DNA of 64,000 nucleotides, taken from NCBI GenBank assembly GCA_017640725.1, contig JAEPQB010000002.1, forward strand, positions 186,001-250,000. The letters run 5' to 3'. The notes beneath the pieces are model-generated. The model worked only from the letters and a program-made list of their open reading frames with translations. It was not told the DNA's origin and ran no database searches. The DNA comes from Kordiimonadaceae bacterium (GTDB lineage Bacteria > Pseudomonadota > Alphaproteobacteria > Sphingomonadales > Kordiimonadaceae). The translations under genes and the position numbers were made by a program. Of this stretch, positions 6,286 to 13,982 are shown piece after piece. Position 1 is the first letter of the stretch. Each line of letters begins with the position of its first letter.

Positions 6286-7641
6286 ATGACAGACTTGGCT
6301 GCACACGTATTATCCCGCTTCGGGCTCGGTGCAAAACCGGGCGAGCGTGAAGAGATTGCTAACGACCCTGAAACCTGGGTTTCAGAACAGTTGACAGCAA
6401 CCCCAGATGATCAATTGGCATATGATGGACGGCCAAGTACAGCTGAGATTGTTGAGCTGTCGATTTCCTCGCAGCAGCTGCGCCGCCAGGCAACAATGGA
6501 CCCAAGCATGGCCGACGCCGCCCAAAAGGCACGGTCTGACCTGTTTGCAGTTTACACGGGCGACGTAATTGCCCGGTTCGCGCAATCAGTTGCTACTACA
6601 ACCCCAATTCAGGAACGATTGGTTCACTTTTGGACCAATCACTTCACGGTATCGGCTGCAAAAAACGATGTCCGGCCATTTGTCGGCGCTTTTGAAAGAG
6701 AAGCAATCCGCCCATATTTGCAGAGCAGCTTTTTCGATATGCTTATGGCGGTAGAACAACACCCTGCAATGCTGACCTATCTGGACAACACCCAGTCTAT
6801 TGGCCCGAACAGCGCAGCCGGACTGCGCAGAGACGCTGGCATCAATGAAAACCTGGCCCGAGAGATACTGGAATTGCATACGGTCAGCACGGCTGCAGAA
6901 TATTCGCAGGCGGACGTCGAAGCCTTTGCCAAAATCATCACTGGCTGGACAGTTGAGTTGAGCCCGTTCAACTCAGCCGATCTCGGCCAGTTCAAATTCG
7001 AAAATCGCTTCCACGAACCTGGCACTCACACTGTATTGGGTGTCAATTATCCAGATACCGGAGTTAAGCAAGGCGAGAGCTTGCTGAAAGATTTGGCCCT
7101 GCACCCCGCGACCGCAAACTTTGTTGCCACCAAGCTTGTCAGACATTTTGTGAGCGACACGCCTGCACCAGAGGACATTGATGTCGTGGCGAATGTTTTC
7201 CTGACAACTGGCGGCGATCTCAATTCAGTGCACACCGCTGTGCTGGGGCTGCCCGGTGCTTGGGTTCCCAACTTCAGCAAGTTTCGCCAACCAGAAGAAT
7301 TTTTGATTGCGGTTGGCCGTTCTGTCGGCATCCCCTCTCAGTTTGAGGCCTTGGTTCCAAACATCCTCAATGAGATGGGACAGATGATCTATGGCCCACC
7401 AAGCCCTGCAGGATGGCCCGATGTTGGCGGCTACTGGTTATCGGGTCAGTCAGTTCTTCGAAGGGCCGACGTATCTTTTGTGACCGGCCGGCAACTGGGC
7501 GGTATGGATAGTGTCGCGTTGCTGGAAGACCTTTACGGCGAACTTTTGTCCACTGAAACACATGACACGCTTGCCGGGGTCAGATCTCAAATTACTGGGC
7601 TCAGCATGGCACTAGCCAGCCCTGAACTCTTGTACCGCTAA
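6286..7641 (+). CDS. DUF1800 family protein
   Basis: A 451-residue protein with the hallmarks of DUF1800: an N-terminal HVLSRFGLGAKPGE stretch, the RLVHFWTNHFTVS motif (about residues 106-118), a later NENLAREILELHT motif and an ITGWTV segment. GGAGGG stands 5 bases before the ATG. No clear signal peptide at the N-terminus. DUF1800 genes are nearly always paired with a DUF1501 gene, as here with a 10-base gap. The biochemical role of the pair is not established. Confidence 0.92.
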   Translation: MTDLAAHVLSRFGLGAKPGEREEIANDPETWVSEQLTATPDDQLAYDGRPSTAEIVELSISSQQLRRQATMDPSMADAAQKARSDLFAVYTGDVIARFAQSVATTTPIQERLVHFWTNHFTVSAAKNDVRPFVGAFEREAIRPYLQSSFFDMLMAVEQHPAMLTYLDNTQSIGPNSAAGLRRDAGINENLAREILELHTVSTAAEYSQADVEAFAKIITGWTVELSPFNSADLGQFKFENRFHEPGTHTVLGVNYPDTGVKQGESLLKDLALHPATANFVATKLVRHFVSDTPAPEDIDVVANVFLTTGGDLNSVHTAVLGLPGAWVPNFSKFRQPEEFLIAVGRSVGIPSQFEALVPNILNEMGQMIYGPPSPAGWPDVGGYWLSGQSVLRRADVSFVTGRQLGGMDSVALLEDLYGELLSTETHDTLAGVRSQITGLSMALASPELLYR

Positions 7642-7651
7642 GGAGAAGATC

Positions 7652-8845
7652 ATGTTGAATAGACGGCATTTTCTTGCAATTTCCGCTGCAACCGCGTCGC
7701 TGGCAATTGCACCCACGTCAGCGTTCGCGGCAAGCGCAACCGACCCTCGTTTCATGTTTATCTTTCTGCGCGGCGGCATGGACGGATTGGCAGCAGTTCC
7801 CACGCCAAACGATACGCTCTATCACACCCTGCGCCCTTCTATTGGAGTTTCACCGGACGAAGCTTTGGCGCTTGACGATACGTTCGCGTTGCACCCGGCA
7901 CTAGGGGGGCTGCACGAAATGTTCTCCAATGGCGAGGCGACCATTTTTCATAACATCTCAAGCCCCAATCGGGAGCGTTCCCATTTCGAAGCGATGCGAC
8001 ACCTGGAGCAAGGCGGCGACACATTGGACAGTATCAACACGGGATGGCTGGCGCGCACACTGAGCGCGCATTACGGTGATGAGGAGAATGCTGGAATTGC
8101 ATTTTCACAAGCCTTGCAAACGTCTTTTTTGGGCGCAGACAATGTTCTTACTTGGGCGCCTTCAAGGATACCCGAGGCACCAGACCGTTTTCTGGATCAA
8201 TTAGATGGCCTTTATGCAGCATCTCCCTCGCTTCAAAATGCGTTGGCAGATGGCCGAACGGCAAACGAAATTGCCGCTATGCACACAAGCGACGAACTTG
8301 GTGACGATGAAACCAACAATTCAATGGTCGCGGTGCAATCCGGCTCACCGCAAGATCTGGCACGGTCGGCCGGGCAGTTTTTGGCGCTCGATGATGGTCC
8401 GCGGATTGCCATGATGGATATCGGTGGTTGGGACACTCACGACAATCAGGTCAATGACCTCAATCAGCAATTACCGATGCTGGACCAAAGCCTGCAGATG
8501 TTGAAAAGCAGTCTGGGCAGTGCTTGGCAATATACATCCGTTTTGGTGATGACCGAATTTGGTCGAACCGTGGCAGAAAATGGCACCAGCGGAACCGATC
8601 ATGGCACCGCGGGCGCGGCATTTATGTTGGGAGGCGCTGTTGCTGGCGGGCAAGTGATCGCGGACTGGCGCGGGTTGGCAAACGACGACCTTTTGGACGG
8701 GCGGGACCTGCCCCCAACGACGGACGCCCGGTCCGTAATGAAAGCGATTTTGGTCGATCATTTGGGTATGACCCTGGATCTTGCAGAAACCGAAGTTTTC
8801 CCAAACAGCGGCGATGCAGTCAAAATCCAGGGATTGTTCACTTAG
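7652..8845 (+). CDS. DUF1501 family protein with Tat signal
   Basis: A 397-residue protein of the DUF1501 group, related to the alkaline phosphatase/sulfatase fold. The N-terminus MLNRRHFLAISAATASLAI is a twin-arginine signal, so it is likely exported folded. Family stretches seen are FIFLRGGMDGL, HFEAMRHLEQG, DIGGWDTHDNQ and VLVMTEFGRTVAENGTSGTDHG; the acidic and histidine residues in these could bind metal. Preceded by AAGGAG and the partner DUF1800 gene. It ends 6 bases from the convergent tolC-like gene with no clear terminator between. Confidence 0.92.
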   Translation: MLNRRHFLAISAATASLAIAPTSAFAASATDPRFMFIFLRGGMDGLAAVPTPNDTLYHTLRPSIGVSPDEALALDDTFALHPALGGLHEMFSNGEATIFHNISSPNRERSHFEAMRHLEQGGDTLDSINTGWLARTLSAHYGDEENAGIAFSQALQTSFLGADNVLTWAPSRIPEAPDRFLDQLDGLYAASPSLQNALADGRTANEIAAMHTSDELGDDETNNSMVAVQSGSPQDLARSAGQFLALDDGPRIAMMDIGGWDTHDNQVNDLNQQLPMLDQSLQMLKSSLGSAWQYTSVLVMTEFGRTVAENGTSGTDHGTAGAAFMLGGAVAGGQVIADWRGLANDDLLDGRDLPPTTDARSVMKAILVDHLGMTLDLAETEVFPNSGDAVKIQGLFT

Positions 8846-8851
8846 GTTTAT

Positions 8852-10336
8852 CTAAAACCAAAACTGGCCGGTGATTGCGAAATATTGCACGAGCAATAAA
8901 TCATGGTCCCGTTGGGCGTTTAGAACCCTCAGCTTGCTATTGGCCAGAGCCGTTTCCTGCACGTTCAGCCTGAACACATCACTGGCACCTGCAAGGTATC
9001 TGGCCTCTTCTGCACGCTGCAACGCTTCGGCTATTTCCACTTCTGACTTGCCAATATCAAGCTGCTGTTCGGTTGCCACTATGCCAGCTTGGTTTGCACG
9101 CAGCGCTAACCCGACCTGATCCTGCAACAGCCGCAATTCAGCCCGGGCGGATTTTAGCTGTGCCACAACTTCGCTGCGTTCGCCCCGTGCCCGAGACAAT
9201 TCTATTGGAACATTGAAATTCAAACCAATCTTGTGATCGGTTCCTTCCCTGGTGGGCGAACCATCACCGAAATCACGCCGAAACTCGTACTTAAGCTCAA
9301 GATTAGGCTGCAGATCATTTTCTGTGAGCCGCTCCTCAGCTTTTAACTGCTCAATATCGAGGCCGATCGCTACAAAGTCGGGGCGACCTTCAAGCGTTTG
9401 CCGGCTTACTTCTTCAACGGAGTTCAAGTTAAAGGGGTTTTGCTGGGGCAACTGCGCTTGTTGTCCAAATTTTGGTGCCTGTGGCTCTCCAGTTTGATCC
9501 CGAAGGTAAAGGGCTAGGTTCATGGCGGCTTGCATGGCCTGCTGCTCTGCCCGAATTTTCTGGCTCTGCCGGGCGAGCAATAACTGCCGGTTTTCTTCCC
9601 GCGCAATACTGGCAAGCTGACCGGCCGCAATGGCTTTTTGAATAGCCTCATCACGCACGAGTGCAATGGTGTAAAGCTCATCGTACACCAGGCGCGTATT
9701 TTCAGCATAAAGCCACTGAACATACGCCTGCATGGCGGCGCTTTTGACACCCAGTATCTGCAAAGCTGCTTTTTGTTCTGCCGACTGGGCAGCCAAACGC
9801 GCATTACTCAGGCCTATCCTCTGAGGGTCTATTTCCCGGCCTCTTAACAAGGCAAACCTTGCGCCTGCACGGATTTCGCCGCCGCCGTTGGTTAGATACT
9901 CATCTTCGTAAATTGGCAGTGTGCCGCTTGAAATGCTGTACCCACCGTAAACTGTGGCGTTAATGCCCTCCAACCGCTGCGAGACAGAAACATCGGCAAC
10001 CTGACCGCCATAAAAACCGGTCATGCGACCATCATAGGAGCCGTTCAAAATCGGATCAAACGGTGCTTGAGCGATGGTTTCGCGAGCAACTGCGGCCTCA
10101 GCAGATGCCTGAGCCTGAATCACTTGAGGCGCGTGCACTTCAACCGATTTCATCAACAAGTCTAGTGTTGTTCCACCTGGCCCCACGACTTGTGCAGCAA
10201 CTTGTGCGATACTTTTTACGGCCACTGCTGTGTAACTGGATTCCGCAACAGGGATGATTTCAATATCTTCCTCGATCGCAGACAGTGGCTGAGCCATCAT
10301 TGCGATCGAAAGGATCAATCCAAGACGTACCTTCAT
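8852..10336 (-). CDS. TolC-family outer membrane efflux protein
   Basis: Outer membrane channel component of a tripartite exporter, 494 residues with an N-terminal signal peptide (MKVRLGLILSIAMMAQPLSA). Two long helical hairpins rich in Ala, Gln and Glu, a GARFALLRGREIDPQR segment and a tail ending in an aromatic residue fit the TolC/CusC fold. It overlaps the HlyD-like gene by 4 bases and is the last gene of a three-gene operon (ABC protein, adaptor, channel). What it exports is not apparent from the neighbourhood. Confidence 0.9.
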   Translation of the reverse strand: MKVRLGLILSIAMMAQPLSAIEEDIEIIPVAESSYTAVAVKSIAQVAAQVVGPGGTTLDLLMKSVEVHAPQVIQAQASAEAAVARETIAQAPFDPILNGSYDGRMTGFYGGQVADVSVSQRLEGINATVYGGYSISSGTLPIYEDEYLTNGGGEIRAGARFALLRGREIDPQRIGLSNARLAAQSAEQKAALQILGVKSAAMQAYVQWLYAENTRLVYDELYTIALVRDEAIQKAIAAGQLASIAREENRQLLLARQSQKIRAEQQAMQAAMNLALYLRDQTGEPQAPKFGQQAQLPQQNPFNLNSVEEVSRQTLEGRPDFVAIGLDIEQLKAEERLTENDLQPNLELKYEFRRDFGDGSPTREGTDHKIGLNFNVPIELSRARGERSEVVAQLKSARAELRLLQDQVGLALRANQAGIVATEQQLDIGKSEVEIAEALQRAEEARYLAGASDVFRLNVQETALANSKLRVLNAQRDHDLLLVQYFAITGQFWF

Positions 10337-11379
10337 TGGGTTTGAACCCCAAATTGCTCAGGGAATTCTGGTGGGAAGTTGTTAAGTTGGCGCCATAATT
10401 CGTAGCCGACGGAAACTTCGTCCAGCAGAACCCAACCGCGGGCATTTGTTCCAACTCGCAGGATATTGTTTGCCGGCCATGGCTGCTCGCCTTCCACTGG
10501 CTTTATGACAATGCGGAATTTTCCGTTGACCCCTGCCATTGGGTCGATAAAGACAACCTCCCCCGGGAAAGTGCCAATCGCCACAGATGGCCACCCGCTG
10601 AATTGAATAACCGGCCAGCCTTCAAACTGCAGGCGCACTTGACGGCCAACGGTAACGAGGCTCGCGTCGCGCCCGTCCACATAAAGCTCAACGGCGCTGT
10701 CAATGTCATCCGGTACAAACTGAGCGAGACGGTCCCCCGCTTTAACGAACGTCGCTGTGCCACCAGCGGCCACACGGGTGATCACACCCGACCTCGGTGC
10801 AACAACAGCCTGGCTGCCCTCACGAGACAGTGCAACTTCAGCCCGGTTTAGTTCGTCGGCCGAGCTTTGAGCGCGCACTTCATACTCAGCTAGTAGAATT
10901 TGAGCCTGTTCCATTTCAAGCCTGGATACCAGACCATCAGCAAACAACGTCGATTTGCGTTCTGCGTCCAGCCGCGCAGTTGCGAGTGCCGTTTGTGCGC
11001 TAGCAAGGCGGTCGCGGGCTAGATCAAGTTGAGTTTGCAATCGGTCCAGCAGCTTAGGGTCATTATCCACTATCCGCGCGATCGGTTGACCAGGTTCAAC
11101 ACGGCTGCCTTCTCTGACATACCACTCAGCAATACGACCGGGCACCAGAGCACTGATCGCTTGCTCTCTCTCCGCGGGGTCCAGCGCCACAATTTGGCCT
11201 GCTCCAGATATGGTTTGCACCCAAGGCACAAAAGTTATGAACAGTAATGCAGCAACAGTGAAAAACAGGCTGGTAAAAGTGAAAACCAAGATCGCGCTTG
11301 GCAATTTGCCTACCTTTAAGGTTTCTAACAGACTGAGTTGTTGCTGATCATAATGCTCTTCGAAAGAAAACTGTCTCAT
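10333..11379 (-). CDS. HlyD-family periplasmic adaptor (membrane fusion protein)
   Basis: A 348-residue adaptor linking an inner membrane transporter to the TolC-like channel. It has one N-terminal membrane segment (about 28-53), a lipoyl half-motif beginning at about residue 78 (ALVPGRIAEWYVREGSRVEPGQPIA in pieces), an alpha-helical hairpin (about 110-190) and the second lipoyl half (VVAPRSGVITRV). A beta-barrel domain follows. It overlaps both neighbours by 4 bases, so the three proteins are probably made together. Shorter than type I secretion HlyD proteins, closer to EmrA/AcrA-sized adaptors. Confidence 0.9.
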   Translation of the reverse strand: MRQFSFEEHYDQQQLSLLETLKVGKLPSAILVFTFTSLFFTVAALLFITFVPWVQTISGAGQIVALDPAEREQAISALVPGRIAEWYVREGSRVEPGQPIARIVDNDPKLLDRLQTQLDLARDRLASAQTALATARLDAERKSTLFADGLVSRLEMEQAQILLAEYEVRAQSSADELNRAEVALSREGSQAVVAPRSGVITRVAAGGTATFVKAGDRLAQFVPDDIDSAVELYVDGRDASLVTVGRQVRLQFEGWPVIQFSGWPSVAIGTFPGEVVFIDPMAGVNGKFRIVIKPVEGEQPWPANNILRVGTNARGWVLLDEVSVGYELWRQLNNFPPEFPEQFGVQTQ

Positions 11380-13052
11380 GCCGCAGCTCCTTTCGAAATG
11401 TCCTGTTCAATCGTCCAGGTCGACGTTACATCACCGCAAGTGAACCCCGGCAGGTCATCTGCTCGGCGAATAACAACAGCGGTGACTTCTCGCTTGCTGC
11501 GCATCTCATCAAGAGTTGCCATAATAAATTCGGGGGCAACCAGCTCAAACACGTCAGTCAATAGAATAAGCCTTGGCTTGTCCATTATGGCTGCCGCGAG
11601 CTTGAGCCGCAGTGTTTCCTCAACGGTGAGCGGCCAGCCGGTAGGCGACACGATGGTATCCAGACCACGCGCAAGACCACTAACACGCTCGGTCAAACCA
11701 ACTACATCTAATGCACGATAGACTTCAGCCCGGTCCACTTCAGGGTGACCGTGCTGGACATAATCCCCAAGCGGCATCTGAGGCAAAGTGGCTCGATCAA
11801 TCACTTTCACCTCACCCGCCAATGTTTGGTGGTGCCAGTCCTTAACGTCTACCGCGTCAACTTCCACACGACCGCTTTGCGCCTGAATATGGCCTTTGAG
11901 CAATCGCGATAGTGTTCGCCGTTCAATAGGAGCCGCGTCGTCAAGACGAATTGAAGCGCCTTGTTCGACGTCAAAACTGAGCTCAACGCGATAGTCACCG
12001 TCGATAACCAGCGCATTTTCAATATGCACGGCACCGCCGCCTAAGGGAATTCGCTCCGCTCGCGGCGGCAAGCGCGATGGAATGCCACCAATCCTGTCCA
12101 ATTCTTCTACGGCGGCACACAGTTCATAATACTCTTCCATCAAGTGCCCCAGCGATACGAAACTGGCGAATATCACCGAAAGAATAAGCTCGGCAGCGAC
12201 AAGCTGCCCCAGCGAGAGCTGCTCGATGATGACAAGCCAGCCACCAATGCCAAGAAGCGCAGCGCTGGCCAGCGCATACAGGAACAAAAGTGAGATCAGT
12301 TGGCGGAAAGTATACCTGAAAAAGCCTTTCATCATGCCAATGTGGCGCTCAATCAGCTGGTTCGTTTTGCGGATCGCATCGTCACCATTAGGACCCGCTT
12401 TGAAAAATTCGGAGTTGTGAGAAAGGCCTTCAATCCAGCCTGCGGTGTCATATTTCGCCTCACTCTCGTGAAATGCCCGCTGCGTAGCCTGCCAACCCCA
12501 AATTTTCCAGATCGCAAACAAGCAAGCAATAAGCGCCGCGTTGAACAGAAGAAATACCGGGTGATACAAACTCGTAACGATAAACCCGATGCCTGACTGG
12601 AACAAAATTGTAAACAGGCCAACCAATAGGGTTGGTACACTCTTTTTGACAGTCATGATGTCAAAATAGCGATTGATGAGGTCGTCACGGCGCTGCTGCT
12701 CAAAAAATGCCGCCGGAGAGTTAACAATTTTCAGGGTGATTTCACTGGCAAGGCGTGCAAACACCCTGCGCTCGAACAGCTCAAGGATATACTCCCTGCA
12801 AGCGTAGAAAAACCCAGACAAAAGAAGCAAGGCGAATAGGGTTACCGCCAATAATATGACCGGCTGCATAAGGGCGGTGTTGGCCACCTGATCAATCAAC
12901 ATTTGGATCGAGATTGGGATGGCCAAAGCCAGTAAGCTGATGAAGGCACTAAATAATATTGCCAACCTGTAATAGCGCGATTCAGGTCCCAAGACCCTGC
13001 GAAACATACGCGAGAATTCTGCTTTTTCAGGAAATTTGCCGTGTTGAGCCAT
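11376..13052 (-). CDS. ABC exporter-like protein with degenerate nucleotide-binding domain
   Basis: A 558-residue protein with the half-transporter layout: membrane domain with about six segments (residues about 28-310) fused to a C-terminal NBD-like domain (about 335-550). The NBD has lost its catalytic motifs. At the Walker A position it reads LDDAAPIERRTLSRLLKG rather than GxxGxGKST; the signature LSGGQ is replaced by LTVEE; Walker B is LILLTDVFE rather than LLLDEP; the H-loop reads VVIRRADD without histidine. Overall spacing of the fold is preserved, and the frame is intact, so it appears selected rather than decayed. It heads the operon with HlyD- and TolC-like genes. It probably cannot hydrolyse ATP; it may need an ATPase partner encoded elsewhere or work by another mechanism. 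Confidence 0.85.
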   Translation of the reverse strand: MAQHGKFPEKAEFSRMFRRVLGPESRYYRLAILFSAFISLLALAIPISIQMLIDQVANTALMQPVILLAVTLFALLLLSGFFYACREYILELFERRVFARLASEITLKIVNSPAAFFEQQRRDDLINRYFDIMTVKKSVPTLLVGLFTILFQSGIGFIVTSLYHPVFLLFNAALIACLFAIWKIWGWQATQRAFHESEAKYDTAGWIEGLSHNSEFFKAGPNGDDAIRKTNQLIERHIGMMKGFFRYTFRQLISLLFLYALASAALLGIGGWLVIIEQLSLGQLVAAELILSVIFASFVSLGHLMEEYYELCAAVEELDRIGGIPSRLPPRAERIPLGGGAVHIENALVIDGDYRVELSFDVEQGASIRLDDAAPIERRTLSRLLKGHIQAQSGRVEVDAVDVKDWHHQTLAGEVKVIDRATLPQMPLGDYVQHGHPEVDRAEVYRALDVVGLTERVSGLARGLDTIVSPTGWPLTVEETLRLKLAAAIMDKPRLILLTDVFELVAPEFIMATLDEMRSKREVTAVVIRRADDLPGFTCGDVTSTWTIEQDISKGAAA

Positions 13053-13245
13053 GTTGAGAAATCACGTTAGATAAATTGGATTAAAATGGTGTTAATTAGC
13101 TTTCCGCTGTAGATACGCATTTATTTTTTACTTTCAAGCGAAATGGGTATCGATAGTTTTTTACTATCACTGTTTTCAACGGACCTTGAGTACTGAGCGA
13201 ATGAAATATCGCTCGTATCTCACTAAAGTTTGTTGTGAAGGATTA

Positions 13246-13611
<366 letters not shown>

Positions 13612-13760: not shown

Positions 13761-13982
13761 ATGACACGCAAAGTGTTTTTGGTATTAGTGGCACTTCCAC
13801 TTGCGGCTTGCAGCAGCAGCGGCGACGAGGTGGTGTTTGATACCGTTTTGGGTCCTGAAACAGAGCGTCAGATTGAAACCTTGCCTTCAACACTGGAAGG
13901 CGACGTAGCAAATGCCCGCTATTCCTCAGAAAACCTCAAGGGTCGTGGGATGGAAAGTAGTGATGGCAGCGGTCTGCAATAG
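13761..13982 (+). CDS. Small lipoprotein, unknown function
   Basis: A 73-residue protein beginning with a lipoprotein signal (MTRKVFLVLVALPLAAC), with the lipobox LAAC at residue 17 and then SSSGDEV. The mature chain is only about 57 residues, acidic and without other recognisable features. GAGGAG stands 8 bases before the ATG, supporting real translation. It lies just upstream of rnpB on the opposite strand. I do not recognise a family. Confidence 0.75.
   Translation: MTRKVFLVLVALPLAACSSSGDEVVFDTVLGPETERQIETLPSTLEGDVANARYSSENLKGRGMESSDGSGLQ

Follow-up and report, generated by a model that had tools for sequence, protein, structure and literature searches.

A tripartite exporter-type operon whose ABC-like protein lacks ATPase motifs, and the bacterial family to which it belongs

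ATP hydrolysis is the defining feature of ABC exporters, and export by Gram-negative tripartite ABC systems is assumed to be powered by the NBD. A described case of an ABC-type membrane domain working in another way is SbmA, which is proton driven through a ladder of six glutamates and is thought to have derived from a full ABC transporter after loss of the NBD (PMC13316013). Within the Sphingomonadales, the HlyBD2-OMP2 cluster of Blastomonas fulva, comprising a HlyB-like gene, a HlyD gene and an outer membrane protein gene, is listed from annotation as an ABC-type efflux pump (PMC9505733). Here, we describe an operon that has the gene order of a tripartite ABC exporter and an ABC-like protein that has none of the ATPase motifs.

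The operon and its ABC-type protein

The operon lies in the window, by which we mean the whole 64,000-nucleotide stretch of DNA analyzed, and belongs to a genome of 4.04 Mb (100% complete) from a close relative of Kordiimonas; among named genomes, the nearest are from uncultured Kordiimonas, at 75 to 83% identity. All three of its ORFs are intact and on the minus strand. The first encodes a pseudo-ABC half transporter of 558 amino acids (positions 11376-13052), with a membrane domain at approximately residues 15 to 325 (12078..13010) and a degenerate NBD at approximately residues 340 to 540, the latter lying within a C-terminal region (residues 331 to 558; 11379..12062) that comprises a linker, an NBD-like domain without ATPase motifs and a tail. 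The second and third encode a HlyD-type periplasmic adaptor of 348 amino acids (10333-11379) and a TolC-type outer membrane factor of 494 amino acids (8852-10336; PF02321, 8e-28). At both gene junctions, stop and start codons share an ATGA, giving overlaps of 4 bases.

In an alignment with canonical exporters from its own genome, the window protein reads DAAPIERRT where they carry the Walker A sequence GPSGAGKST, LTVEE in place of the LSGGQ signature, LILLTDVFELVA in place of the Walker B sequence LLLDEATSALD, and VVIRRA in the H-loop region in place of IAHRL. The Q-loop Gln is replaced by Asp. With Walker A, the Q-loop, LSGGQ, the Walker B Asp-Glu pair and the H-loop all replaced, the protein falls outside the ABC ATPases. 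Pfam searches agree in scoring it above the cut-off for ABC_membrane (PF00664; 43.1 bits against 28) and below that for ABC_tran (PF00005; 19.6 bits against 25); these two were its only Pfam matches at E ≤ 1, with none to the SbmA/BacA family.

An AlphaFold2 model of the protein (pLDDT 86.4, pTM 0.75), built with 76 family members and without templates, has the type IV ABC exporter fold of membrane domain plus NBD over its whole length, although such models lean on known ABC folds. Structural alignment with VIA-align gave TmrB as the best match (531 residues, Z 27.6, 2.7 Å), and HlyB of the HlyB/D complex (8dck) aligned over 525 residues (Z 27.1, 2.5 Å); SbmA was not among the structural matches listed, which has no bearing either way. 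An NBD-like C-terminal domain is thus predicted, and one of another kind was rejected on the basis of the model and the structural alignment. The initial annotation of this locus, which had described an ABC-like protein without any ATPase motif in an intact frame overlapping intact HlyD and TolC genes, agrees with these results throughout: the motif strings it quoted are exact, the three ORFs are open and joined by ATGA overlaps, and its proviso that the C-terminal domain might prove not to be NBD-like is answered by the predicted fold.

Immediately upstream, an RNase P RNA gene (13245-13607, minus strand; RF00010, 328 bits) lies between the operon and a TetR-like gene; its shadow ORFs resemble small proteins and are not genes. 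A small peptide substrate gene in the 930-base upstream gap was considered and rejected; the conservation in that gap comes from the RNase P RNA gene itself. A 73-amino-acid small lipoprotein-like ORF (MTRKVFLVLVALPLAACSSSGDEVVFDTVLGPETERQIETLP...; 13761-13982, plus strand) has conserved counterparts beside rnpB at two related loci (L026 and L031). Downstream of the operon, a convergent gene pair on the plus strand (6286-8845; 451 and 397 amino acids) resembles a DUF1800/DUF1501 pair; at L026, L027 and L031, TolC is followed by a different gene of approximately 820 to 840 amino acids.

Spread, operon conservation and domain constraint of the family

The window protein is one member of a widespread family, not a lone decayed copy. 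A tblastn scan of one-per-species genomes returned 552 candidate stretches encoding a relative, and the best 80 of the 552 were kept. These come mainly from Sphingomonadales, Parvularculaceae, Halieaceae and other Gammaproteobacteria, with one labeled Myxococcota. Every one of these best 80 lacks Walker A, the signature, the Walker B Asp-Glu pair and the H-loop His, and a shared replacement consensus is seen in most of them (ASxHGVQRL, VLDRPT, LSxxEtmq, VLVLSxLFDmv and YFSNR). Because all 80 named homologous loci are degenerate alike, neither chance nor decay of a single copy accounts for the pattern. Of the approximately 100 homologues examined, drawn mostly from Sphingomonadales and Gammaproteobacteria with some from Bacteroidota, none has a complete ATPase motif set. 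The gene is present in 82 of 398 sampled genomes of the order, and its distribution is patchy: in the window's genus, 7 of 20 sampled genomes carry it.

More distant relatives occur in other Proteobacteria (L164, L166-L171) and in Bacteroidota (Persicobacter, Riemerella and Aureibacter). Some distant relatives retain a P-loop (GATGSGKSS in L164, GDSGSGKST in L166, GDTASGKSL in L155), but the signature, the Q-loop Gln, the H-loop His and a conventionally placed complete Walker B Asp-Glu pair were present in none of the distant relatives examined. In a membrane-domain tree, 40 sampled members split from nine canonical exporters with support of 100/100, and the P-loop-keeping sequences group in a set of six (95/99); the long canonical outgroup branch makes the root uncertain, so that the order of motif loss is a suggestion.

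At the other extreme is a relative that lacks the NBD (G025), the sole such case among 82. Its protein of 333 amino acids ends just past TM6 and the extension of that helix, and is 62% identical to the window protein over the membrane domain. Just as in the window, its stop codon and the HlyD start share an ATGA, and an intact TolC gene is next. In the membrane-domain tree, this relative nests with the window's own group (100/100), so loss of the NBD looks derived. No stand-alone copy of the window NBD was found in its genome, an assembly of approximately 250 contigs that is 93% complete. A split NBD elsewhere in that genome was rejected, as the sole matches to the window NBD were two canonical exporters of approximately 660 amino acids at 21 to 22% identity.

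The operon is conserved along with the protein. At 68 of the 69 named loci with enough downstream sequence, the ABC gene is followed by HlyD and TolC, in that order and without a change of strand, a count that includes genes in Erythrobacteraceae that had been masked by antisense shadow ORFs and were recovered. The distance from the ABC stop to the nearest in-frame HlyD start codon is at most 17 bases at all but one of these 68 loci, and the same gene order is found in public annotation of Riemerella, Aureibacter, Novosphingobium and plasmid copies in Sphingobium. SARO_RS19820 of Novosphingobium aromaticivorans is one member of the family. No other recurrent neighbor was found across the related loci. 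Conserved neighbors were considered as a clue to the substrate and rejected, since beyond HlyD and TolC there was only local synteny among Erythrobacteraceae.

Selection has acted on both domains of the protein, though unequally. Five Kordiimonas-group copies show saturation at synonymous sites (pS 0.72 to 0.86), while pN is 0.08 to 0.17 in the membrane domain and 0.13 to 0.32 in the NBD, indicating that both domains are constrained and the NBD less so. In the same 15 genomes, mean identity of the pseudo-ABC protein is 56% in the membrane domain and 38% in the NBD, compared to 61% and 70%, respectively, in a canonical exporter. The NBD is the more conserved domain in none of 105 genome pairs for the pseudo-ABC protein, compared to 92 of 105 for the canonical exporter. 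Domain constraint is inverted relative to the canonical exporter. A pseudogene or sequencing error was rejected, as the ORF is open in the window and at all related loci, synonymous sites are saturated and protein sites are conserved. The expectation that the gene is under selection, made at the outset from the intact frame, is thus upheld, and a relaxation of selection to neutrality, which would have spoken against it, is contradicted by saturated synonymous sites and retained protein sequence. The homologue search proposed with it found motif degeneration to be family-wide, and no homologue in the same operon carried a full Walker set.

Several members are of interest in their own right. A contig labeled as a Klebsiella pneumoniae MAG (L056) carries the pseudo-ABC operon, with a membrane domain that groups with Nevskia and Lysobacteraceae members; it is probably a mislabeled bin. 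Two pseudo-ABC copies were found in one genome or bin in a Sphingomonadales MAG and in Sphingobium psychrophilum (L054 with L058, L069 with L093), so the system can occur twice. Two longer members (L167, 754 amino acids; L154, 724 amino acids) have an N-terminal extension ahead of the membrane domain.

Possible sources of energy

We infer that the operon would encode a tripartite exporter spanning the inner to the outer membrane, in which a dimer of ABC-type membrane domains would join a HlyD adaptor and a TolC duct. The inner-membrane part would be the descendant of an ABC exporter that neither binds nor hydrolyzes ATP any longer. The NBD may be retained as a structural dimerization or gating domain that at least one lineage can do without; it is present in every member except one, with some clade-specific conserved positions (D419, P474 and F528), which suggests that it still does something. 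An ion gradient acting on the membrane domain could then drive transport in the manner of SbmA.

The membrane domain offers candidates for such a role. Five residues (Y163, S197, K200, Q251 and E288) are invariant in an alignment of 102 sequences (weighted frequency, 1.00), and the same columns are not conserved in nine canonical exporters. According to hydropathy and the model, E288 sits in the hydrophobic run of TM6, close to the beginning of that helix, where hydrophobicity peaks, and this membrane-embedded residue would be the first candidate for coupling. We favor an ion-driven exporter because SbmA sets a precedent for an ABC-type membrane domain powered by the proton gradient via conserved glutamates. 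The SbmA ladder has six glutamates, compared to the one invariant membrane-embedded acidic residue found in the window family, and the parallel drawn is one of analogy. Against ion coupling, the invariant residues may serve contact with HlyD instead. On balance, we give roughly even chances to a family of tripartite exporters that does not run on its own ATPase, with an ion gradient as its most likely drive. The fuller account is more tentative and somewhat less likely to hold as a whole: an undescribed, widespread tripartite exporter family in which an ABC exporter turned ATP independent and probably ion driven, with the steps still legible from a P-loop kept and catalysis lost, through a dead NBD, to no NBD.

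The main rival to an ion-driven exporter is a scaffold or gated channel, in which the membrane domain docks HlyD and TolC to form a passive or signal-gated route and the NBD is regulatory. This would fit a protein that has lost every catalytic motif but kept its fold, the conserved positions of the NBD's own, and the persistence of HlyD and TolC even where the NBD has been lost. However, charged and polar residues that are invariant within the transport domain point beyond docking, without excluding it, and we regard a scaffold or channel as unlikely, if the strongest of the alternatives.

Less likely again is a hetero-oligomer of the TmrAB kind, in which this protein would be the noncatalytic half and a canonical ABC exporter with its gene elsewhere would supply the ATPase. 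Heterodimers of a degenerate and a canonical half are common among ABC exporters, the window's own genome encodes several canonical exporters, and TmrB, the best structural match, is itself the degenerate half of TmrAB (PMC8277102). However, no canonical ABC gene recurs beside the operon in related loci, and known degenerate halves keep part of the motifs, forming a composite site, whereas the window protein keeps none. Moreover, no PrtD-class match at E ≤ 1e-100 was found in four genomes with the pseudo-ABC gene (G025, G033, G039 and G055), the presence or absence of PrtD-class proteins does not track that of the pseudo-ABC protein, and the genome of the NBD-less relative has just the two canonical exporter matches, both of approximately 660 amino acids. 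Of the three mechanisms first put forward for this locus, pairing with another ATPase has thus lost ground, as no partner is linked or co-occurs, while drive by the proton gradient and a scaffold role survive as the favored reading and its main rival. Noncanonical nucleotide binding by the NBD, making the protein ATP regulated, is very improbable: the P-loops of L164, L166 and L155 mean that binding may persist in part of the clade, but GxxxxGK[ST] is missing from the window protein and all of its best 80 named relatives, and one relative has no NBD at all.

If the ion-driven reading is correct, the family would offer a natural experiment in ways of powering an ABC membrane domain, with the membrane domain, adaptor and duct held under strong selection and the ATPase discarded. 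It would join SbmA as a second example of a primary transporter that has become something different, and would correct current annotations, in which such genes are named "ABC transporter ATP-binding protein" or taken for HlyB-type pumps of the ordinary kind.

Comparison with known systems

The system most similar in layout is HlyB-HlyD-TolC type I secretion, with which the operon shares gene order, partners and full-length fold; the HlyD adaptor and TolC duct that mark such operons accompany the pseudo-ABC gene in the window and at the 68 related loci. Unlike a type I secretion ABC protein, the window protein has no ATPase motifs, and it misses the curated NCBIfam cut-offs for HlyB (95.3 against 725.6 bits), PrtD (92.6 against 510.2) and LssB (89.5 against 693.1). 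Its family also forms a clade separate from HlyB-type exporters in the membrane-domain tree. With TmrAB, BmrCD and TM287/288, it shares a degenerate NBD in an exporter half and, in the case of TmrB, a very similar fold. In contrast to those heterodimers, which have a cognate canonical half, the window operon has none linked to it, related loci have no recurrent ABC neighbor, and every motif is lost.

Like SbmA and other SLiPT proteins, the family has an ABC-type membrane domain without an NBD ATPase. However, SbmA is an importer with an extra TM0 domain, without coupling helices and without an NBD, whereas the window protein keeps the NBD fold and the HlyD and TolC partners; the G025 relative alone shares the absence of the NBD. 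HlyBD2-OMP2 of Blastomonas fulva is probably a member of this family, judged by its description rather than its sequence; in the portions of PMC9505733 that concern the cluster, it is treated as an ordinary ABC pump and its motifs are not remarked on. A description-based search of mostly open-access literature found no paper describing this family or its dead ATPase. While the parts are of known kinds, what appears to be novel is their combination: a full-length dead NBD, a conserved HlyD/TolC operon and an NBD-less derivative.
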